This document shows positions 44,009-58,394 of a stretch of 64,000 bases of DNA, piece by piece. Numbering within the stretch: the stretch's first letter is position 1; every line of letters begins with the position of its first letter. The notes below the pieces were generated by a model. The model was not told the DNA's origin. It saw nothing but the letters and a program-made list of their open reading frames with translations, and did no database searches. This stretch comes from Paenibacillus sp. FSL R10-2782 (GTDB lineage Bacteria; Bacillota; Bacilli; Paenibacillales; Paenibacillaceae): the NCBI RefSeq assembly GCF_038592985.1, contig NZ_CP151951.1, forward strand, positions 3,959,001 through 4,023,000. The letters are read 5' to 3'. A program made the translations under genes and the position numbers.

Positions 44009-44365
44009 TCAACTAACCCCAAATCCAACAGCAGTCGCTGCTGCTCCTACCACCACGGAAGACAGCACATACACAGCCATACACCGATATTCCTTGCGCT
44101 CCATCAATTGGAGAGATTCATACCCGAATGTTGAAAAGGTGGTATAGCCACCACAAAAGCCTGTTCCTAACAGCATCCAAAGTGCAAGAGACAGATTATG
44201 CTGCGTAAATTCGCCGTACAGCCAGCCGAGTAGAAAGGAACCGCTGATGTTAATGATCCATGTTCCCCAAGGAAATGCGATGCCGAACCTTTTTCCGGCC
44301 CACATGCCAAGCCCGTATCTCGCCAATGTACCGACCATTCCACCTGCCGCCGCCCACCAGATCAT
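44009..44365 (-). CDS. crcB: fluoride ion channel subunit (second gene of pair)
   Basis: A 118-aa membrane protein with four transmembrane helices, of the CrcB/Fluc family that exports fluoride. Family motifs are GGMVGTLARYG near the N-terminus, the asparagine and GS in WGTWIINISGSFLLGWLYG, and GTGFCGGYTTFSTFGYES with the conserved central TxFSTF pore phenylalanines. Its ATG overlaps the preceding crcB stop by 4 bases (ATGA). Pairs of CrcB proteins in Gram-positives usually form a dual-topology heterodimer. I saw no fluoride riboswitch upstream. Confidence 0.94.
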   Translation of the reverse strand: MIWWAAAGGMVGTLARYGLGMWAGKRFGIAFPWGTWIINISGSFLLGWLYGEFTQHNLSLALWMLLGTGFCGGYTTFSTFGYESLQLMERKEYRCMAVYVLSSVVVGAAATAVGFGVS

Positions 44366-44763
44366 AAGCTATCCTCCTTGGGGGCAGCTTGCGTCATTTT
44401 CGTGCCCAGACGAATACCTGTCCATGTCAAAAACAGACCTCCACATACACTGAACAACAGATACAACACAGCCGTAAGCGCACGATCATGAACCGTCAGG
44501 CGCACAGCATCCACTGCAAAGGTGGAAAAAGTGGTAAAGCCTCCTGTAAAGCCTGTTCCGATGGCAAGTCGCCAGCGAGGCTTGATTCGCCACGACCGTA
44601 AGGTTACGGTGAAAAACCAGCCGAGAAACAGACAGCCGATCCAATTGATTAACAGCACACCAAGTGGAAAATCAGCCCCTGCCGCAGGCAGCAATGTTTG
44701 CACGCCGTAACGGGCAGAGGTTCCGAGCGCTCCTCCCGCCCCGACGAATAGCACGTCCTTCAT
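44362..44763 (-). CDS. crcB: fluoride ion channel subunit (first gene of pair)
   Basis: A 133-aa CrcB/Fluc family channel subunit with four helices. Motifs are GGALGTSARYGVQTL, FPLGVLLINWIGCLFLGWFF and GTGFTGGFTTFSTFAVDAV. The frame opens at 44805, but the ATG at 44763 follows GAAGGGG at about 9 bases and gives the usual start. It overlaps the downstream crcB by 4 bp. It lies about 100 bp after the rarA stop and probably has its own promoter. Together the pair should give fluoride resistance. Confidence 0.94.
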   Translation of the reverse strand: MKDVLFVGAGGALGTSARYGVQTLLPAAGADFPLGVLLINWIGCLFLGWFFTVTLRSWRIKPRWRLAIGTGFTGGFTTFSTFAVDAVRLTVHDRALTAVLYLLFSVCGGLFLTWTGIRLGTKMTQAAPKEDSL

Positions 44764-44866
44764 CTTTATGTCCCCTTCTTCACTTTTGCAATATTCATGG
44801 TGCAACCATAACGGTGGCTATACCTCTGATCTTATTCACTACATATATCCGTCTGCTACATATATT

Positions 44867-48989: not shown

Positions 48990-49439
48990 TTAAAATGGAT
49001 CGGCTATGAACCGCATTGCCCTATCGTGTCTACCAACGACATTCGTATCTTCGTTGACAACCATCAGTTGTAACAGAGTTTGAACACAGATATCATTCAC
49101 ATGGTATCGTTGCGATGACTTCAACTCACGATAGACGGGCAGAGCATGCTCTCGCACGGTTGGAAAGCCTGCTTCCACCTCACCACGTATACCCGTCATG
49201 CCCCACTCTTTGTACAACCGTTCGCCGACCGTTAAGTCTGTTGATTTTTCCAGGAATACAAGTTCACTCTCACATAAACCTTTGGTCATCTGAGCAATGG
49301 TCTCACAAATGATTTGTTCATCCAGCCTGCTAGCAGTTGCTCGTGTCGTACAACAATACGCAGCAGCAGCACAAATAATTCCTAGCGAAAAAATAAGGCC
49401 TTTATGTGTGTTCACCCCGCCTGTTGCGGCAAACATCAA
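48990..49439 (-). pseudogene. triphosphoribosyl-dephospho-CoA synthase (CitG) fragment
   Basis: The 149-codon frame begins with MMFAATGGVNTHKGLIFSL followed by GIICAAAAYC, the central conserved block of CitG, and continues with GERLYKEWGMTGIRGEVEAG, FPTVREHALPVYREL and LMVVNEDTNVVGRHD. CitG makes the prosthetic-group precursor of citrate lyase and is normally about 280 aa. Here the first 110 or so residues and the C-terminal end are missing, and there is no start signal in the upstream region, which is the promoter of the divergent transporter. No citrate lyase gene is nearby. It is a remnant left by a deletion or rearrangement. Confidence 0.8.
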
Positions 49440-49475
49440 GACACAGATTTAGATGATATGTTTCAATCTTTTTGC

Positions 49476-49504
49476 TTGACACTCTTAATTGTAAACCATA
49501 TTAT
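49476..49504 (+). promoter_or_regulatory. sigma-A promoter of the EamA transporter
   Basis: TTGACA (49476-49481), 17 bases, TATTAT (49499-49504): an almost perfect housekeeping promoter 75 bp before the ATG. The -10 box lies inside the spacer of the inverted repeat described as a BirA-type operator. Confidence 0.85.
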
Positions 49505-49523
49505 TATTTATCGGTTTACAATT
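49487..49523. promoter_or_regulatory. BirA-type biotin operator over the transporter promoter
   Basis: AATTGTAAACC (49487-49497) and GGTTTACAATT (49513-49523) are perfect 11-bp inverted halves separated by 15 bases. This equals the known BirA operator form TTGTAAACC-N14-16-GGTTTACAA of bacterial biotin genes. It covers the -10 box and the spacer of the promoter, so bound BirA-biotinyl-AMP would block transcription. The pattern is seen directly; BirA as the binder is inferred from the consensus. Confidence 0.8.
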
Positions 49524-49579
49524 TTTTTTGATATTATGCATTCTAGCATAAAGAACTAAGAGGAAGAGGCATTAAGAAA

Positions 49580-50476
49580 ATGAATAATGAAAAAGATGGT
49601 GTTATGTATGCTATATTTTCGTATATACTATGGGGATTAACTCCTCTATATTGGAAACTAGTTCAACATATATCCTCTGGTGAAATTTTAGCTCAACGTG
49701 TGATCTGGTCTTATATTTTTGTTCTTTTTCTAATCATAGTCACAAAAAAATGGAGAGATTACATCACTTTCACAAAAGGGCTCCTAAAAAACTTAAAGTT
49801 ACTCTCATTACTTGTTATCGCTTCTTTACTTATCAGCTCTAATTGGGGAATATTTATGTGGGCTGTAATTAATGGGAGGATTGTAGAAGCAAGTCTCGGG
49901 CAATATATTAATCCTTTAACAAGTATGATCATTGGGGTCTTAGCTTTAAAGGAAAGGTTAACTGTTTTTCAAACTCTTTCTTTTATACTAGCAGATCTAG
50001 GCGTTCTTTCACTTAGTTTGGCATATGGAGTTTTCCCTTGGATTTCCTTGTGCTTGGCATTGACTTTTGGATTTTATGGCCTTTTGAAAAAGAAAATTAA
50101 TACAGACTCTACCGTTAGTTTAGCCCTTGAGACTATGGTAATTACTCCGATCGCTTTGAGCTATCTAATATATTTAATCATTGAAAACAGACTACAATTT
50201 ATTGAATCGGTTCCGAATAGCTTACTATTGATTGGTACTGGTGTCGTCACTGCGTTGCCTCTGCTTCTATTTACAAAGAGTGCTCAAAAAGTAACGTTAT
50301 CTTTACTAGGTATCCTTCAATATATTTCCCCTACGATCGCATTAATTACTGGTATTTTTCTCTATCACGAAACGTTAACTAATGCACATATCATTGCATT
50401 TAGTTTCATATGGCTGGGACTTGCAGTCTACTCTTCTTCATCTTTCGTTAAAAATCGTAAAAAAACTAACTTTTAA
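49580..50476 (+). CDS. EamA/RarD-type DMT transporter, probably biotin-regulated
   Basis: A 298-aa membrane protein with ten transmembrane helices of the drug/metabolite transporter superfamily. The RarD subfamily features are visible: YAIFSYILWGLTPLYWKL, GEILAQRVIWSYIFVL, SNWGIFMWAVINGRIVEASL, GQYINPLTSMIIGVL and GILQYISPTIALITGIFLYHET. AGAGGAAGAGG precedes the ATG. RarD proteins have no firm substrate. The promoter is overlapped by a BirA-type operator, so import of biotin or of a biotin precursor is a reasonable hypothesis, as for E. coli YigM, another DMT protein. It is AT-rich and monocistronic. Confidence 0.9.
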   Translation: MNNEKDGVMYAIFSYILWGLTPLYWKLVQHISSGEILAQRVIWSYIFVLFLIIVTKKWRDYITFTKGLLKNLKLLSLLVIASLLISSNWGIFMWAVINGRIVEASLGQYINPLTSMIIGVLALKERLTVFQTLSFILADLGVLSLSLAYGVFPWISLCLALTFGFYGLLKKKINTDSTVSLALETMVITPIALSYLIYLIIENRLQFIESVPNSLLLIGTGVVTALPLLLFTKSAQKVTLSLLGILQYISPTIALITGIFLYHETLTNAHIIAFSFIWLGLAVYSSSSFVKNRKKTNF

Positions 50477-50495
50477 TGATGTAGTCCAAAAAAAT

Positions 50496-50545
50496 TAAGG
50501 TTAAGTTGACAATCGCTATTTCGCGCAGTCAACTTAACCTTATTA
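50496..50545. terminator. bidirectional terminator between transporter and GH43 genes
   Basis: AAGGTTAAGTTGAC and GTCAACTTAACCTT form a perfect 14-bp stem around a 17-base loop. It has TATTATTTTA on the plus side and AATTTTTTTGG on the minus side. Confidence 0.88.
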
Positions 50546-50547
50546 TT

Positions 50548-52185
50548 TTAATTAAAATCGTTAGCCAAATATTCAAAGAAATCAAAGTCCGCATAGTGCT
50601 GATGCTTTACCCGATCTGCGCAGGTTATACCTACAAAACATCCTGTAAATTCCCCGTAATTGCTGTATTCATCAGAAAATTTTGTGGTATCGAATTTATC
50701 ACCGATCGCTTCGAACACTTCTCCGTCATAGCTCCATTCAAACCATGTTTCCCTGCCCACAATGTTCAGTCGCAGATATACGGGTACATCTTTAACTGGA
50801 ACACGGGTGCTCAACAGCTCAGTCTTCTCGCCATTATCCAGATGAATAATAGACAACGCACTTTGTCCCAACGTTTCACTAGAATACTTTCTTAGATTAA
50901 TGTAGTTCATGTTGTCGTAATACAAAATCACCCCTGCACTATGCTGGGGAACCTCAGGCAGAAATTCCATTTTGGTTGTCACCGTTGCATAAAAGGAAGT
51001 CAATTTTCTCGCCAATATGCTGACCCTGTTCAGGGACGTTCTCGACTCCTGTCCACGGATTCTGGCATGACCTGGACGTGTCTTCAAATCGGTAAAAGAT
51101 TGTGGCATCATTCTGGGGGCATAATACTGGATTCCCAATTCCGGTGAATCAAAGTCATCATAACCTGGAATCTCCATTACCGGATGCTCGGTCAACTGAC
51201 TTTCTGGCACATATTCCTTGGCGAGATTCGTTCCGTCCTCCATGCGAAGCCAGCCGTCATCGGTCCAGTTCATCTTTTGGATAGCCGTTTCCCGCCCTAG
51301 CGTACAGCGAAGTTCAGGAACAAATGGACGTGCACACAGATGTACAAGATAGACTTCTCCAAGTGACGTCTCTACATAGCTGCCGTGACCTGATTTCTGC
51401 AGAACTGACTCTGGATTGAAATATTTGGGCTTCAGATGGTCGGGGTCATGCCTCTCGTAGAAATCACCTGGGACGGAAGTAACGATTGGATTCATTGGGT
51501 CACCCTCGTAAGGCCCCCAAACGTTCTTAGCACGTCCCATCGTTACACTGTGTCCATAACCCGTTCCACCTTCGGCACACATGATGTAATAATACTCCCC
51601 ACGTTTGGTGAGATGCGGTGCTTCGATACACCCTCGATCTGTGCCCCCTGACCAGATTCGTTTCGGATAACCGACGATCTCCCTTTTCTCTGGTGAATAC
51701 TCCACCAGACAGATGGCACCTGGTTTCTCGTACCCTTCTCTCGTTTCCCATTCAAGCGCCACCACCCATTTTCGTCCATCGTCATCATGCAGGATGGAGG
51801 CATCAAAACCTGACGAATGCAGGTATACCGGCTCGCTCCAAGGACCCTGAATATCCCGTGCAGTGATAAGATAGTTATCTATATCAAAGTATCTGGCATT
51901 CATCGAATTCATTGCACCATATACCACATAAAAGAGATCCTCTTTTTCACTATAAGTCAATGAAGGTGCCCATACACCTTTGGCTGAAGGCAACTTTTTC
52001 AAATCCACCTGTACATCATCAGTAAGTACATGCGTGTACAGCTCCCAGTTCTTCATATCCTTGGAGTGATACACGGGAATTCCCGGAAACCATTCAAAGC
52101 TTGATACAGCTACGTAGTAATCCTCTCCCTTTCGGCAAATGCAAGGGTCCGGGTTAAATCCGGGAAATATCGGATTCCTGATCAT
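50548..52185 (-). CDS. glycoside hydrolase family 43 beta-xylosidase
   Basis: A 545-aa cytosolic enzyme (no signal peptide) that likely splits xylose from xylo-oligosaccharides taken into the cell. The five-bladed propeller domain (1-320) has the catalytic base Asp in GFNPDPCICRKGEDYYVAV, the pKa-tuning Asp in GFDASILHDDDGRKW and the acid Glu in RGCIEAPHLTKRGEYYY. The C-terminal beta-sandwich (about 340-540) includes QHSAGVILYYDNMNYINLR, the usual GH43_C2 ligand loop. AGAGGAAG precedes the ATG. It lies 44 bp after the GH5 gene, so the two are probably one operon under the divergent AraC regulator. Confidence 0.94.
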   Translation of the reverse strand: MIRNPIFPGFNPDPCICRKGEDYYVAVSSFEWFPGIPVYHSKDMKNWELYTHVLTDDVQVDLKKLPSAKGVWAPSLTYSEKEDLFYVVYGAMNSMNARYFDIDNYLITARDIQGPWSEPVYLHSSGFDASILHDDDGRKWVVALEWETREGYEKPGAICLVEYSPEKREIVGYPKRIWSGGTDRGCIEAPHLTKRGEYYYIMCAEGGTGYGHSVTMGRAKNVWGPYEGDPMNPIVTSVPGDFYERHDPDHLKPKYFNPESVLQKSGHGSYVETSLGEVYLVHLCARPFVPELRCTLGRETAIQKMNWTDDGWLRMEDGTNLAKEYVPESQLTEHPVMEIPGYDDFDSPELGIQYYAPRMMPQSFTDLKTRPGHARIRGQESRTSLNRVSILARKLTSFYATVTTKMEFLPEVPQHSAGVILYYDNMNYINLRKYSSETLGQSALSIIHLDNGEKTELLSTRVPVKDVPVYLRLNIVGRETWFEWSYDGEVFEAIGDKFDTTKFSDEYSNYGEFTGCFVGITCADRVKHQHYADFDFFEYLANDFN

Positions 52186-52229
52186 AATATTTGCTTCCTC
52201 TCTGATTGAGAATAATCCAATTTATTGAT

Positions 52230-53411
52230 TTAGTTTTGTGTTGTAACCGGATACCACCTAAGGCTTACCGATTTCCCCAGATCCCAACTATCCCAGCCAA
52301 TCCAGCCTGCATCATTAACGGTATCCAGTAACAGTTTGTAATTCCAGTAAAAGTGACCACTCATCTTGCTCCATGCTTCAAGCTGTGCATTAGCGACTGT
52401 ACTGTACAGTTGCTTTCGCCCTTCGACATCCAGCTTGTCCTCATGTGCTTCAACACCATTGACAGGTGAAAGTCCACCTGAAGTATCAATTCCGGTTCCA
52501 TACGAATTGAACAAACTCCACTCACCACAGATTAACGGGAAATATTTCTGCATTTCTACAATCTCTTTGGTCAGGTACTCTTCAACAAATTTGACGTATC
52601 CCTCTACCGTTTGCTCACAACCATACATCTCTGCTGACATGAGGTATTGATGGGTGTCGAGCACAACATTTTTATATTGTTCTTCCTGCATGAAATCCTT
52701 CCATGCTGTCAGTTCGAATCCATCATGTATTACGATGACCTTGTCCTCCGGAAGATAGCGACGAATCCGGTGATACGCATCTACATAGAAAGTCCGCAAA
52801 AATTCCATAGAGATGGGAGCACTCCCGGCTGCAAGCTCCGGATCAGCTGGTTTATACCGATTCTGAACGTCCATAGATTTCCATGTCCGCTCAGTAATGG
52901 GTTCATTCAGTACGCCGATGCCCCATAGATTTGGATGTGCAGCATAACGGTTGGACAATTTTTCCAGCAATTGAAGTGCAAACTCGACACTCTCCGGTTG
53001 TTGTGCCCATTTACATACACCGGAGATACCACCGTTATCGAACCCGTTCTGTCCTCCAGGCACCGTGTGAAGATCGATCAACACCTGAAGATCATACTTC
53101 TTCGCCCATGCAAATGCTTTATCCAGTTCTTCAATGCAACCAATATATGGCGGACAATCTCCCATAATAAAATAGGGAACCGGGATACGTACGGCATTCA
53201 TTCCATATGAACGTATCGTTGCAAAGTCACGCTCCGTAATATATTCATGGCGATGCAATCGAATTCTTGCTTCATAGACCTCCGGACTCAGTTGAGTTGG
53301 CAAATAATATTCGTCGTCAGCCGTTGTACCTTCAAACATTCCGGGATTCATCCATTTCTCCAGAACAAGCCAATTCCCCAGGTTTACACCATTGATATAG
53401 TTGGTTTCCAA
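52230..53411 (-). CDS. glycoside hydrolase family 5 enzyme, cytosolic
   Basis: A 393-aa (beta/alpha)8 glycosidase without signal peptide. Family features: INGVNLGNWLVLEKWMNP at the N-terminus (exo-beta-1,3-glucanase-like GH5 pattern), ITERDFATIRSYGMNAVRIP, VLIDLHTVPGGQNGFDNGG, the acid/base Glu in GIGVLNEPITE and the nucleophile Glu in PLICGEWSLF. The start is TTG at 53411, about 8 bases after GGGAGG. It is the first gene of the GH5-GH43 unit and divergent from an AraC regulator 143 bp away. It probably trims imported beta-glucan or related oligosaccharides; exact specificity is open. Confidence 0.9.
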   Translation of the reverse strand: METNYINGVNLGNWLVLEKWMNPGMFEGTTADDEYYLPTQLSPEVYEARIRLHRHEYITERDFATIRSYGMNAVRIPVPYFIMGDCPPYIGCIEELDKAFAWAKKYDLQVLIDLHTVPGGQNGFDNGGISGVCKWAQQPESVEFALQLLEKLSNRYAAHPNLWGIGVLNEPITERTWKSMDVQNRYKPADPELAAGSAPISMEFLRTFYVDAYHRIRRYLPEDKVIVIHDGFELTAWKDFMQEEQYKNVVLDTHQYLMSAEMYGCEQTVEGYVKFVEEYLTKEIVEMQKYFPLICGEWSLFNSYGTGIDTSGGLSPVNGVEAHEDKLDVEGRKQLYSTVANAQLEAWSKMSGHFYWNYKLLLDTVNDAGWIGWDSWDLGKSVSLRWYPVTTQN

Positions 53412-53554
53412 TTAAACCGCCTCCCGATCATGATCTATTCTTGTGCTTGATTGAATTGTATGAATTAATGGCGTAATCTTATATCATGAATTCATGTTAT
53501 TTATCACAAAATTTAGATTGATTCAAAAAACTTTGTGACCCAAACGGAGGCTCT

Positions 53555-54769
53555 ATGAATATTCCCTATCTCATGAGATACCTTTCAACCCAGTTACAGA
53601 CTAACGTAATTCAATACAGTTTGGCCGGAGATATCCTCAATACAGAGATTTCGGGATCCCAAGAGGGGGCAGTAGATTCAGCCCGATCAGAATGGCCTGT
53701 AATCTTCAAGACTGCACATCCTAAATCCTTGCCTGTCATTATAGAAAATCGTTCTTGTCAGGTCTATGTCATCATGATTGTGTCGAATTACTGTTTTCAG
53801 ATCGGCCCGGTGCGAATCCTGGAACAAGTCCCCTTTCAGCACGTCATGCCGGACTGGGGGATCATTGAGAACACTGAACACGTTGTATTCTGTGACTTTG
53901 ATCTATTGCTGCAACATACACTTTTGATGCGTAATTTGCTTTCGAATGATCCGATAGACCGAAAAGAGTTGCTGGAGTTCAACCTGGATACCCGTGCAGA
54001 ACAAAACGTAAAAAAACATTTCTCCGATATTCTTTTTCAAAATCAGGAGTCAGGCAAAATGCACAATCCGTATGATCAAGAGGTTCGGGAGATCAGCAGC
54101 ATCCGTAACGGAGATTTCAAACAATTAGAACGCAGTCTAAGCGAAAAAAGTAGCGGACACTATGGCGTTCTTGCTCACGACCCGCTTCGATCCCTAAAAA
54201 ACATATGCATTGTCGTAATTACGCTGGCAAGTCGCGCAGCTATTGAAGGAGGGGTCTCTCCCGAGATTGCCTACTCCTTAAGTGACAGCTACATTTACAA
54301 AATGGAAGAATTAAATGATCGCCACACCATTCATCAGTTATGCCGTAACGCCGAGTATGAATATACCCGTTTAGTATACGATATCAAGCAAATGAGACAT
54401 AAGCAGCCTGCCGCGATGCATTCCAACCCCAAAATTACTCGATGTAAGGATTATATTTTTGAACATTTGCATGACAAGATCACACTTGGCGGGATTGCCA
54501 AGGAACTGAACGTCAATGCAAATTACCTTGCAGATCTGTTCAGTAGAACGGAAGGAGTGACGATCCGTGACTTCATCATGCAGGAAAAGATGAATCTTGC
54601 CCGTAATTTACTGATCTATTCCGAGTATACCTACAGCGAGATTGCAACAAGCCTGGGCTTTTGCTCCCAAAGCCATTTTGGTAAAATTTTTAAAGAGGTG
54701 GCTGGAACCACACCCAAACAGTACAGGGATACCTACGGCCTGAAACCATCTAGAGAGCTCATAGAGTAG
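53555..54769 (+). CDS. AraC-family regulator of the GH5-GH43 unit
   Basis: A 404-aa protein. The first 290 residues form a large sensor region of unknown fold (PAS- or YSIRK-like features not evident). The C-terminal 110 residues are an AraC double helix-turn-helix: CKDYIFEHLHDKITLGGIAK, NVNANYLADLFSRTEGVTI and SEIATSLGFCSQSHFGKIFK. The N-terminal layout (a domain with QIGPVRI followed by a long helical part) is shared with several Paenibacillus AraC proteins next to glycosidase genes. GGAGG lies before the ATG. It is divergent from the GH5 gene, so local regulation is the natural inference. Confidence 0.88.
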   Translation: MNIPYLMRYLSTQLQTNVIQYSLAGDILNTEISGSQEGAVDSARSEWPVIFKTAHPKSLPVIIENRSCQVYVIMIVSNYCFQIGPVRILEQVPFQHVMPDWGIIENTEHVVFCDFDLLLQHTLLMRNLLSNDPIDRKELLEFNLDTRAEQNVKKHFSDILFQNQESGKMHNPYDQEVREISSIRNGDFKQLERSLSEKSSGHYGVLAHDPLRSLKNICIVVITLASRAAIEGGVSPEIAYSLSDSYIYKMEELNDRHTIHQLCRNAEYEYTRLVYDIKQMRHKQPAAMHSNPKITRCKDYIFEHLHDKITLGGIAKELNVNANYLADLFSRTEGVTIRDFIMQEKMNLARNLLIYSEYTYSEIATSLGFCSQSHFGKIFKEVAGTTPKQYRDTYGLKPSRELIE

Positions 54770-54796
54770 TGTGGTTTAGTCTATGCTACGAAAGCC

Positions 54797-54835
54797 AAAG
54801 CCCAAGCATCCTTCGCTTGGGCTTTGCTCTTTTCT
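54797..54835 (+). terminator. terminator of the AraC gene
   Basis: AAAGCCCAAGC (54797-54807) and GCTTGGGCTTT (54815-54825) pair perfectly around a 7-base loop, followed by GCTCTTTTCTTTC. The minus-strand side is also suitable for the convergent remnant. Confidence 0.8.
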
Positions 54836-54855
54836 TTCTGCAATACTACGTCAAT

Positions 54856-55362
54856 TTAGTGAATCAATTGAATCTGATCTACACGGATATCCTTATCTTT
54901 GAAAACAAGGTACACATTCTGTTTGCCCTTCACTTTGTGGGTTATTTCAGCGATCACATCCGAATATTTCATTTCATTCAGCGTTGCTCCGGTTCCATTC
55001 AAGCTTGGAATCTCATATGAAGACATTCCTGTTGGGCCAAATTTCAAAGTCGCCAGTTTGGCTCCGTCAGGTGATCCTGCTCTCACCTCAATGATTGAAC
55101 TGTTATTATGTGAACTGACTCGTAATTTGAGCTTATTCACCCCGTCCAGACTCACATTTGGCAATGCCACCCAAGAGTTCCTCTTCGTTGACATCACAGC
55201 GTAATATTGTCCAGCTAATGTAATACTTCGTTCCTTGCTGACCAGGTTAATGTGCTCACCATGACTGCCGCAAGCAAGGATAGTGAAAACTTCTTCCCCT
55301 GTCGAATAAACTTCGCAACCAATTTGTAATCGATCACCAAAATATGTATCCCCTTCAGAATT
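54856..55362 (-). pseudogene. 3' remnant of a carbohydrate enzyme with CBM6-like module
   Basis: The minus-strand frame opens just after a TGA (55363-55365) and runs about 168 codons to 54856 without a plausible start signal. It reads GDTYFGDRLQIGCEVYSTGE and LACGSHGEHINLVSKERSI, then a module with SWVALPNVSLDGVNKLKL, IEVRAGSPDGAKLATLKFG and NVYLVFKDKDIRVDQIQLIH. The latter has the beta-sandwich pattern of a family 6 carbohydrate-binding module. The catalytic part of the enzyme is missing. It lies between the GH5/GH43 regulator and a truncated ABC permease, so a larger polysaccharide locus has been deleted here. Confidence 0.72.
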
Positions 55363-55492
55363 TCAGGGTATAATATCGCTTTCTTATTTTAGCAACCGAT
55401 CTTCTACTGAATCAGTAGAGAGAAATAGTGGAAAGTTTGTAATTGCCGAATACTGAAAATATATGTCAACCAGCCACAGCAACGGAATCTTT

Positions 55493-55535
55493 TGAAAAAA
55501 AGGAACGATCTCCGCCTTGACAGAAATCGTTCCTT
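55493..55535 (-). terminator. terminator after the ABC permease remnant
   Basis: AAGGAACGAT (55500-55509) and ATCGTTCCTT (55526-55535) form a 10-bp stem with a 16-base loop. On the minus strand TTTTTCAAAAG follows, extending the T-run of the stem to seven. Confidence 0.85.
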
Positions 55536-55551
55536 GAATCTGGGTTGTGCA

Positions 55552-55743
55552 TCAGCCTTTCACTGCACCAGTTGTGACACCCTTGGTAATTTTCTCGTTG
55601 AAAATGGCATAAATGATGATCGCTGGAATAGAGGTTAATACCATTACCGCAAACTGTGAACCATAGTCAGATGAATATTGTCCCGCAAAATTCATAACGG
55701 AGAAAGGCAATGTCTTCAACGCATCCTGACTAAAATTTAACAA
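55552..55743 (-). pseudogene. carbohydrate ABC transporter permease, C-terminal remnant
   Basis: Only about 60 codons remain: TLPFSVMNFAGQYSSDYGSQ, FAVMVLTSIPAIIIYAIFNE, then KITKGVTTGAVKG. This is the typical C-terminal end of MalG/LplC-type sugar ABC permeases, which are normally near 280-300 aa with six helices. The conserved EAA loop and first five helices are missing. The frame begins inside the last codons of the DUF1349 gene and no binding protein or second permease remains. It is a deletion product and cannot function as a transporter. Confidence 0.85.
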
Positions 55744-56315
55744 TTTCCTCCACGAATATCTTCCAGGCCTCTCAGCTCCAAGGAGACATCTTTAAAATGA
55801 ATCAATGCTCCCTCTCCAATCGGAGACTGAGCTTCGAGTCCTACCTTGATTCTCTTTTGCATCGGAAGATTACAAAGACGAGCCATTATATATCTTTCTC
55901 CATCCAATGAATAGTGTGTAGCAAAAATATCATCTTTGCGAGCTAATTGGAGCCATACTTCTTGCCCCTCAACATTATATCCATTGGCATCATCCGATAG
56001 CCCATTGGTCATAACGGTTACTACGGAATGCGTATCGAAATCCGTTCTTTCGAAACAAGCTTTTGCCCATAGATTATCATGATCTACTGCAAGAAGAACG
56101 CCAGCATCAAACGTGCTGACAAAAGCCAGACTTACTCTCGCTCGCAACACGAAATCCCCTTCAACCCACTGATAAAAAAAAGGTGCGCTTGTATTTACAT
56201 CCCCATTCCCGGGATGAACAAAATATTCCGAGCCTTTTGGAGCAAATATTTCTATGCCATCTTCCGTTACATTATGTTGGGCTCCGTTCACCCACTGAAA
56301 ATCTTTAAAGTCCAC
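55737..56315 (-). CDS. DUF1349 concanavalin-like protein
   Basis: A 192-aa cytosolic protein with the DUF1349 beta-sandwich: DFKDFQWVNGAQHNVTEDGI, GSEYFVHPGNGDVNTSAPFF, GDFVLRARVSLAFVSTFDAG, LLAVDHDNLWAKACFE, and GEEVWLQLARKDDIF-like strands near residue 125. Yeast REE1 and many glycan-locus proteins share this fold, probably binding sugar or polysaccharide breakdown products. The frame opens at 56384, but the GTG at 56315 lies 8 bases after GGAGG. Its 3' end overlaps the ABC permease remnant. It is divergent from an AraC gene. Confidence 0.82.
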   Translation of the reverse strand: MDFKDFQWVNGAQHNVTEDGIEIFAPKGSEYFVHPGNGDVNTSAPFFYQWVEGDFVLRARVSLAFVSTFDAGVLLAVDHDNLWAKACFERTDFDTHSVVTVMTNGLSDDANGYNVEGQEVWLQLARKDDIFATHYSLDGERYIMARLCNLPMQKRIKVGLEAQSPIGEGALIHFKDVSLELRGLEDIRGGNC

Positions 56316-56522
56316 TTTTTTTGCCTCCAATGCGTAATGTTGATATCCATCCTCTAGTTGCTTGTTGAAGAGAAGTGATAACACAGTATTCTTGTCTCAT
56401 TTGACAATGTACCAAAATTACGATATATGATGTTACATAATACTAAGATAATTTTAAAATACTAATATGGATTTTCACCTTGATATTATGAGCACACTTT
56501 TATGGATGAAGGGTAGGACACC

Positions 56523-57248
56523 ATGCTAAAATATTATGACTTTTTGTTCAGGCTTCGCTCCAGCGAATTTGAACATCATACACCCGAGAGGAACGTGGAG
56601 CTTCTCTTTAACCTTTTTAACCGTCCCCATAGTTCCGGAGTTGCTTCACAATTTTGCAATAATCTGGACGGTGATATGGGCATTCTTTCGGATAACGAGA
56701 TTAAAAATTTACAGCTGACGATCACAGGTACGGTATTTCTACTAACCTCGTATTTGATCGATAACCATGTTAATTCGGAACATGCATACAGCACGGGTGA
56801 TTTCTTTATTCACAAGGCGGATACAATTAAAACAACAGAAGAATCATCAGCACTCTTTGATGAAATGGCTATGCGGTACAAAGATCTGCTGCAAAGTCGA
56901 CGAAAAGTCTCATACGGGTATCCCATTGATAAATGCATTCATTATATTGAACAAAAGCTGCATTCCCCGCTAACTCTGGATGATATTGCCGGATACATGG
57001 GAATGACTCCGGAATATTTGACGACGCTGTTTAAACAAACGACTGGAATTTCAGCCTATCAATATGTCACCCAGAGAAAGATCGAGGAAGCCAAAGACAT
57101 GCTGCAGTACACCAGTATACCCATGCATATCGTTGCGAGTTCCCTCGGCTTTAATAGTAATCCGCATTTCTCCAATGCCTTCAAGAAAAATGTTGGGCTT
57201 ACCCCTTTCCAGTTTAGAAAGGAACATAGTAAGACTTCTCTATTTTAG
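56523..57248 (+). CDS. AraC-family transcriptional regulator
   Basis: A 241-aa protein with a short helical N-terminal part (about 1-130, no recognised sensor domain) and a C-terminal AraC double helix-turn-helix: DKCIHYIEQKLHSPLTLDDI, AGYMGMTPEYLTTLFKQTTG, IVASSLGFNSNPHFSNAFKK and GLTPFQFRKEH. It resembles the C-terminal half of the 404-aa regulator at 53.6 kb, and its N-terminal sequence reads like the inner half of that protein (EIKNLQLTITGTVFLLTSYL against SLKNICIVVITLASRAAIEG). The first 150 residues of the longer type are absent. GAAGGGTAGGA lies before the ATG. Target genes are probably DUF1349 and neighbours. Confidence 0.82.
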   Translation: MLKYYDFLFRLRSSEFEHHTPERNVELLFNLFNRPHSSGVASQFCNNLDGDMGILSDNEIKNLQLTITGTVFLLTSYLIDNHVNSEHAYSTGDFFIHKADTIKTTEESSALFDEMAMRYKDLLQSRRKVSYGYPIDKCIHYIEQKLHSPLTLDDIAGYMGMTPEYLTTLFKQTTGISAYQYVTQRKIEEAKDMLQYTSIPMHIVASSLGFNSNPHFSNAFKKNVGLTPFQFRKEHSKTSLF

Positions 57249-57313
57249 AAGTTATCCTTACTGTGAATCTATAGCTCTCATGATAGCGCTTACGTTGTGA
57301 TTTTCGCACGACA

Positions 57314-58270
57314 TTAACCATAACAGATCCGCAGCTTTGAATAGAAGTCTTCCATCGTCATCCTCACATCTATATAATCGTAGACTCGTATTTGCTTGCC
57401 CTCCGTTCTCATCTCATAGGTCATATCCTCTCCAATGATCGGCGCATATTCCATATGGTATGTGCACCGATCTTTACCATATAGCAACACAGTTATTGTC
57501 GGCTGATCCCCCAAACACCAGGTCTCCCCATGCGGCCATCTCCAGTCCGGATACTTTAATCCCATATCCGTGTTGAAATCAACTAATTGTTCAAACAGAT
57601 ATCGACCGATGGGTCCACATGCGTGTACCTTATCCTGAATTTCTGCTAAAGATGCCTCTACCTGTCTATATGTACTCATGGGAATCTGCCAAATCGGAAT
57701 GGATGAGTCAAACACAATCTGTGCTGCCCGAACATCCTGATACATATTAAATTCATTGCCTCCTAGCGGATAATCTCCGCCCCCGATCCAGATTGCAGTC
57801 AAACGGTTGGAAATTTGAGGATTTTTCCGATATGCCAGCGCCAGATCTGTAAGACATCCTTGAAGAGCCACAAACAGGGGTCGCTCATCGTCTTTCATCG
57901 CCTCTTCAACAATAAAGTCAGCGCCCTCACTCACTTGCAAGTTATCATCCAGATCTATTGGACCTGTGGCACCCTTCTGAACAGGAATGTCATTCATACC
58001 CATCAGGTGAAGAAGCTTATCAATCTCTGTGTAGCTCTCTGACATGCTGCATACAGGTTGTTCTTCATTCTGAGACATTCTAAATTTTATTCCATAATGA
58101 CCGGCAATAATTCCGGCAATCTCAAACGAGGGAGTAAGTAAATGATGGACAATAGCGAATTGGTCATCTGCCTCGTTTTTGGCATCTGCGTGAACAATGA
58201 CTCTTACCTTTTTCGAATCCGGCACATTGAATTTAAATTTTGAGTCAAGGATTTCCTGTCTCTTCATCAT
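57314..58270 (-). CDS. nucleoside hydrolase-like protein
   Basis: A 318-aa protein of the inosine-uridine nucleoside hydrolase superfamily, enzymes that split the N-glycosidic bond with a bound calcium. The N-terminal metal motif is changed from DTDxxxDD to HADAKNEADDQFAIVH, keeping the AsnGluAlaAspAsp pattern. Later features are ALQGCLTDLALAYRKNP, IWIGGGDYPLGGNEFNMYQD and a C-terminal CLGDQPTITVLLYG. The deviation at the first motif suggests a substrate other than standard nucleosides, possibly a glycan-linked compound. AGAGGAAA lies before the ATG. It is transcribed alone toward the AraC gene. Confidence 0.85.
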   Translation of the reverse strand: MMKRQEILDSKFKFNVPDSKKVRVIVHADAKNEADDQFAIVHHLLTPSFEIAGIIAGHYGIKFRMSQNEEQPVCSMSESYTEIDKLLHLMGMNDIPVQKGATGPIDLDDNLQVSEGADFIVEEAMKDDERPLFVALQGCLTDLALAYRKNPQISNRLTAIWIGGGDYPLGGNEFNMYQDVRAAQIVFDSSIPIWQIPMSTYRQVEASLAEIQDKVHACGPIGRYLFEQLVDFNTDMGLKYPDWRWPHGETWCLGDQPTITVLLYGKDRCTYHMEYAPIIGEDMTYEMRTEGKQIRVYDYIDVRMTMEDFYSKLRICYG

Positions 58271-58394
58271 TTTCCTCTCACCTTCCAGCTATATATTAAG
58301 CGCTTTCTTAAATGATAACACAAATGTCAACAAGTGCACTCGTCGGGTATGCGCTTTTATAATCCGTAAGATGCGTGCGGGTGAGGGAAGAAAA

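Follow-up and report, generated by a model that had tools for sequence, protein, structure and literature searches.

A horizontally acquired RarD-type transporter gene under a predicted BirA operator in Paenibacillus sp. FSL R10-2782, a candidate importer of biotin or a precursor

The window analysed here, that is, the whole stretch of 64,000 nucleotides from the genome of the soil bacterium Paenibacillus sp. FSL R10-2782, contains the gene rarD at positions 49580..50476 of the plus strand, which encodes a protein of 298 amino acids. The initial annotation had claimed an EamA/RarD transporter at this place, and the assignment was confirmed by profile comparison, in which the protein reached 226 bits against TIGR00688 (cut-off 130) and also matched PF00892 as a member of the EamA/DMT transporters; a second RarD model of the enterobacterial type, NF011959, was missed by it (220 of 540 bits). 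E. coli RarD is likewise RarD-type and is 37% identical to the window protein over the whole length, and a comparison with solved structures gave no sequence relative at E 0.01. Upstream of the gene, the promoter scan computed a -35 box TTGACA (49476..49481, plus strand), which is also found at the orthologue in genome G053 discussed below, and a -10 box TATTAT (49499..49504, plus strand), 17 nt apart and with 11 of 12 consensus matches. Since shuffled sequences yield 4.8 promoter-like sites and the region itself 2, the promoter match is not significant by itself. A purine-rich stretch GAGGAAGAGG (49560..49569, plus strand), read directly from the sequence, is likely the ribosome-binding site. 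On the 3′ side of the stop codon, RNA folding gave a hairpin of 15 pairs with a T-rich tail (50489..50549, plus strand; -24.5 kcal/mol, z -6.7), likely a terminator; the consensus terminator scan, restricted to loops of up to 8, missed it. The next gene encodes a GH43 glycosidase and is convergent, so that rarD forms a single-gene unit, in agreement with the earlier statement that one gene lies downstream of the promoter. An Rfam search at the gathering threshold gave no match in L001. In another part of the window (44009-44805), two adjacent minus-strand genes of the CrcB family (PF02537) have the arrangement of a two-gene fluoride channel.

The promoter of rarD carries a palindrome, AATTGTAAACC-N15-GGTTTACAATT (49487..49523, no strand), for which a perfect inverted repeat lying over the -10 box had been claimed. 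Both points were borne out: the arms 49487-49497 and 49513-49523 are complementary at 11 of 11 positions with 15 nt between them, and the repeat overlaps the 3′ part of the promoter spacer together with the box TATTAT. When the form TTGTWWACC-N15-GGTWWACAA was searched with up to 3 mismatches, the window gave one match, with 0 mismatches; shuffled windows, with mismatches allowed, gave a mean of 0.24 matches, and 22 of 100 shuffles had one. The operator of the biotin repressor BirA is an inverted repeat whose halves, TTGTWAACC and GGTTWACAA, are separated by 14-16 nt, and this form agrees with what was found in the genus as a whole. With the strict pattern TTGTWAACC-N13-17-GGTTWACAA, one site was found in the 5.6 Mb of the own genome, and 21 sites, one each in 21 genomes, when the 75 genomes of the genus were scanned with the own among them; there the reversed-pattern control (strict, N14-16) gave 0 matches. 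All 20 strict sites other than that of the own rarD lie at biotin genes, namely bioA (11), bioY (8, four of these assignments resting on 36-39% identity to the own BioY) and bioB (1). These genes were assigned by tblastn with the own BioY, the own BioB, a BioA and a second BioY-like protein. A comparison of four of these proteins with NCBIfam assigned two to bioA and one to bioB. The remaining one, a BioY-like protein, had no NCBIfam family match at E 1e-20, and neither had the own BioY, which is a BioY by Pfam PF02632.

With the relaxed pattern TTGTNAACC-N14-16-GGTTNAC, exactly the sites of bioY (N15), bioB (N16) and rarD were obtained from the 5.6 Mb genome, and 0 from its control; that is to say, the own biotin genes carry the same type of site, as had been proposed for a check. 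Moreover, the own genome encodes a BirA of 326 amino acids (L002), in which an N-terminal HTH_11 domain (residues 6-58, 55 bits against a cut-off of 25) precedes the ligase domains, and the DNA-binding domain looked for is thus present. Among the 75 genomes, the relaxed pattern occurs at 92 places in 66, all of which were inspected: 81 lie at bioY (54), bioA (15) or bioB (12), 6 at an ECF S-component of the PF09819 type, 1 at an AMP-ligase, 2 at rarD, and 2 (L087, L088) have no visible biotin link. All 15 genomes with a bioA above the curated cut-off have a relaxed site at it. The palindrome could in principle have arisen by chance or serve some other regulator, and the two places without visible biotin link, together with the 24 strand-counts (14 forward, 10 reverse) of the reversed relaxed control in the 75 genomes, indicate that weak sites do arise by chance; only two carriers of this rarD are available for comparison, and binding by BirA is a prediction. 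On the other hand, the strict control is empty in 75 genomes, 0 of the 20 other strict sites is off biotin genes, the site is kept in the orthologue of G053, and a BirA with helix-turn-helix is present, so an accidental palindrome is unlikely by the genus-wide scans with their reversed-pattern controls, and this explanation has very little probability. In our assessment, the palindrome at rarD is very probably a site for BirA, whose binding we infer from the pattern of sites.

The relaxed places outside the known biotin genes deserve a description of their own. Palindromes of the BirA type (TTGTCAACC ... GGTTGACAA) precede the gene of a PF09819 (YkoE-like) S-component in 6 of 6 loci, L107 (G028), L119 (G018), L121 (G026), L144 (G060), L148 (G062) and L165 (G074), with an ECF-type ATPase downstream and, at L107, a CbiQ-type T-component on the other side; none of the six has an Rfam match at the gathering threshold. 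In these six genomes the relaxed scan finds a bioB site in five and a bioY site in none. The PF09819 S-component system is a candidate for a new ECF transporter of biotin vitamers. YhfT of B. subtilis is an AMP-binding acyl-CoA ligase, and at L129 (G045) a BirA-type site was observed upstream of a gene for such a ligase; in B. subtilis, yhfT belongs to an operon controlled by BirA. The regulon of B. subtilis BirA, a group II biotin protein ligase, is described in PMC4016012 as bioWAFDBI, yuiG and yhfUTS. It resembles the present system in that a BirA with an N-terminal helix-turn-helix is combined with inverted-repeat operators before synthesis genes and transporters; it differs in that its transporters are BioY-like ECF S-components, whereas here a DMT carrier of the RarD type is added.

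Conservation of the site at orthologues was also considered, with a divided result. The only close orthologue found, that of G053, is 89-91% identical to the window RarD, its frame ending early at 265 amino acids. By sequence reading, its promoter is TTGACA-17-TAATAT and is accompanied by the repeat TTGTTAACC-N15-GGTTGACAT, which agrees with the half-site form at 16 of 18 positions. Between the window and the G053 locus, the blastn alignment starts only at window 49563, with none further upstream. The expectation that the palindrome is conserved at orthologues was borne out for G053 and not for the relatives from other genera that were inspected: at L011-L021 and L073-L083 there is no site of at least 15/18 at a spacing of 14-16 nt, a scan with 12-18 nt gave one 15/18 match, in L016 and roughly 3.5 kb away from the rarD there, and the 400 nt upstream of six other-genus rarD genes (203 nt in the case of L014) yielded at best 11-13 matching positions out of 18. 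In addition, no biotin link was seen in 10 neighbouring ORFs of other-genus relatives. Since the inspected relatives have no site, the link between rarD and BirA is lineage-specific as far as seen. For the proposed control of rarD by BirA, the helix-turn-helix and the own bio sites speak in favour, and conservation is mixed. In G053 itself, no bioB site was found by the relaxed scan.

The genus also has native-type RarD proteins, and control of these by BirA was considered and rejected, as the 30 native-type loci scanned out of 57 (L024-L051, L166 and L167) have no site of at least 15/18 at 14-16 nt, and the 92 relaxed places include no RarD relative besides those of the window and G053. The own genome has both kinds: its native copy (G000:C1:4441615), 41% identical, has no site at its locus L166, in contrast to the acquired copy.

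As for the origin of the gene, a search for RarD at a threshold of E 1e-40 gave matches in 56 of the 75 same-genus genomes, mostly native-type at 41-46% identity. Proteins of the window type, taken as matches at E 1e-80 or better with the best few candidates per genome scored, occur in 2 of 394 genomes of the family, the own and G053, and among 398 genomes drawn from the class a threshold of E 1e-85 is passed in 13, which are these two and 11 others at 48-53% identity. The next relatives are about 61-71% identical; those listed include Lysinibacillus, the Bacillus cereus group, Peribacillus, Priestia, Anaerobacillus, Halalkalibacter, Sporosarcina, Propionispira and others, drawn from a search with six peptide patterns, of a kind that reaches close relatives only, and from the best 120 of 1280 matches of a second search. 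In Planococcus sp. ISL-110 (L018), the rarD relative is divided between two frames. In the tree, the pair of window and G053 falls inside a mostly Bacillaceae clade (21 rows, support 100/100). Vertical descent with the native RarD was rejected, the log-likelihood of the union being 60 lower (p-AU 0.00036) in a comparison whose group was chosen after an earlier tree; that tree contained the mis-framed rows L018 and L019, and nothing here relies on it. The GC content of rarD is 33.8% against 45.9% for the window. On these computations, the window rarD is horizontally acquired. Carriage on a known plasmid was also tried as a source and rejected, the best plasmid relatives being 44% identical.

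The conspecific genome G063 (94% complete) shows the place with other genes and lacks the window-type rarD. Its left flank is similar to the window up to 49436 at 97-99% identity and similarity resumes at 58338, so that about 8.9 kb of the window, rarD included, corresponds in place to about 11.4 kb of G063. G063 has an intact citG of 299 amino acids here, followed by a citrate-lyase cluster that includes a 2HCT transporter; the left neighbour of rarD in the window is a shortened citG (48990..49439, minus strand), which matches profile positions 84-217 of 275. Opposite window 49437-58337, the genes observed in G063 (L171) are citG, citF, a lyase subunit of the HpcH/HpaI type and the 2HCT transporter, and in the window itself the shortened citG is followed by rarD, genes of the GH43 and GH5 types and, by sequence reading, AraC-like regulators. 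In G053 (L170, 6356-6451), 83 bases directly behind rarD match the beginning of the window GH43 gene (50581-52160); because of this match, the pair of rarD and GH43 may predate the split of the two lineages and be decaying in G053.

Such a history raises the possibility that BirA does bind the site and that the link is recent and inconsequential, the acquired gene having carried or evolved an operator while being dispensable. A close homologue in only 2 of 394 family genomes, its absence from the conspecific G063 and the shortened frame in G053 would fit this; against it, both carriers keep operator and promoter, though blastn gives no similarity farther upstream, and the window genome combines an intact frame with a perfect site. 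We regard this explanation as improbable, while giving it somewhat more weight than an accidental palindrome.

The stem branch of the pair of window and G053 is long, with 0.44 changes per column. A residue shared by at least 95% of 56 relatives marks 123 columns, and in 9 of these the window protein is altered. Eight of these are altered in G053 as well, six to the same residue (columns 23, 45, 72, 158, 180 and 212) and two to a different one (48 and 259); at column 280, the frame of G053 is already over. E. coli RarD has the common residue at 4 of the 6 columns altered alike (45, 72, 180 and 212). The altered columns and the long stem branch would fit a shift of function, and equally a relaxed constraint.

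The cargo of the carrier is approached through its relatives. YigM and RarD share the DMT superfamily, and YigM is a secondary transporter of E. coli, as the window RarD is predicted to be. The claim that the window protein is of another subfamily than YigM held, there being no significant similarity in a single comparison (20.8 bits, E 0.03). YigM (BioP) is a demonstrated biotin importer, in contrast to the window RarD, which is a candidate only; PMC12642757 places YigM/BioP in the carboxylate/amino acid/amine family. It had also been stated that RarD proteins have no established substrate, which is roughly right, with the exception that fitness data in PMC10102598 link RarD proteins of other bacteria to the transport of various amino acids and one of them to a pyruvate-specific phenotype. 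Moreover, B. subtilis PanU/YhfU is repressed by BirA and imports pantothenate (as described in PMC11487621), so that control by BirA does not by itself fix biotin as the cargo.

These data make it conceivable that BirA controls rarD and that the cargo is not a vitamer at all, being instead a compound that relieves biotin shortage, such as an amino acid (for example aspartate, which would bypass pyruvate carboxylase), pyruvate or pantothenate. PanU (PMC11487621) is a precedent, the fitness phenotypes (PMC10102598) point in the same direction, and the window RarD resembles YigM in superfamily membership only. The pattern of the regulon weighs on the other side, since 81 of the 92 relaxed sites in the genus are at bioA, bioB or bioY, and the changes at conserved columns hint at a possible departure from the ancestral function of RarD, with the qualification that relaxed constraint would look alike. 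A non-vitamer cargo is in our opinion a possibility to be taken seriously, on the doubtful side.

The biotin gene set of the host bears on the vitamer reading. Its bioB scores 408 bits (cut-off 225), and the best matches to bioD (24.6 bits) and bioA (230 bits) are below the curated cut-offs of 83.3 and 405; therefore, the host must obtain biotin or desthiobiotin from outside. The pattern of bioB without bioA and bioD is termed that of a desthiobiotin auxotroph in PMC9561691, and resembles the A1 variant of BioB-only salvage in PMC6593275, in which bioB is kept, bioA and bioD are missing and an importer is needed; both papers assign such a gene set to bacteria that subsist on biotin or desthiobiotin. 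The importers named for such salvage in the excerpts of these two papers (PMC6593275, PMC9561691) are BioY, YigM and the ECF biotin transporter, with RarD not among them. It has been reported that BioY and YigM may take other biotin vitamers and that dethiobiotin competes for uptake in E. coli (PMC6593275), and entry of desthiobiotin through known biotin transporters is called an unsettled question in PMC9561691. Biotin auxotrophy is known in Paenibacillus from P. sonchi SBR5 (PMC10789242). The own bioY is BirA-linked and divergent to genes for an ECF ATPase and an ATPase-CbiQ fusion; as BioY thus has its ECF module, biotin import is already provided and a second importer is not needed for it.

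Combining these points, the following mechanism is proposed. At ample biotin, the bifunctional repressor BirA, carrying biotinyl-AMP, would dimerise on the operator, cover the -10 box and keep rarD off, and when biotin is low, rarD would be turned on together with bioY and bioB. RarD would then bring in a biotin vitamer. The most useful cargo would be desthiobiotin, for conversion to biotin by BioB; alternatively, biotin itself may be carried, which would give the cell another route next to the BioY-ECF system. That RarD imports biotin or a precursor is a plausible prediction, with the chances of vitamer import roughly even. From the gene set, desthiobiotin would be a sensible cargo, and a desthiobiotin carrier or a second biotin route would be the simplest reason for a RarD in the BirA regulon. 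Taken jointly, repression of rarD by BirA at plentiful biotin, a direction we infer, and import of a biotin vitamer by RarD form the reading that we slightly favour over its negation. A more specific and speculative version, to which we assign a small chance, is that RarD is a dedicated desthiobiotin importer, transferred from a donor of the mostly Bacillaceae clade, captured by BirA in a Paenibacillus lineage with bioB only and shifted in its specificity.

The open-licence literature searched contains no report of a RarD under BirA, and in the literature searched neither a transporter dedicated to desthiobiotin nor a role of RarD in the biotin pathway is reported. Predicting what a transporter carries is difficult, and knowledge of the cargo of RarD proteins is scant, so that a well-supported site of a vitamin repressor provides a short list of candidate substrates for one of them. 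If the specific version were true, this RarD would be a carrier reserved for desthiobiotin, and a RarD protein would have a place in the biotin pathway. The case would bear on the desthiobiotin supply of bacteria with bioB alone, and is very probably an example of a transferred transporter that was joined to a vitamin regulon.
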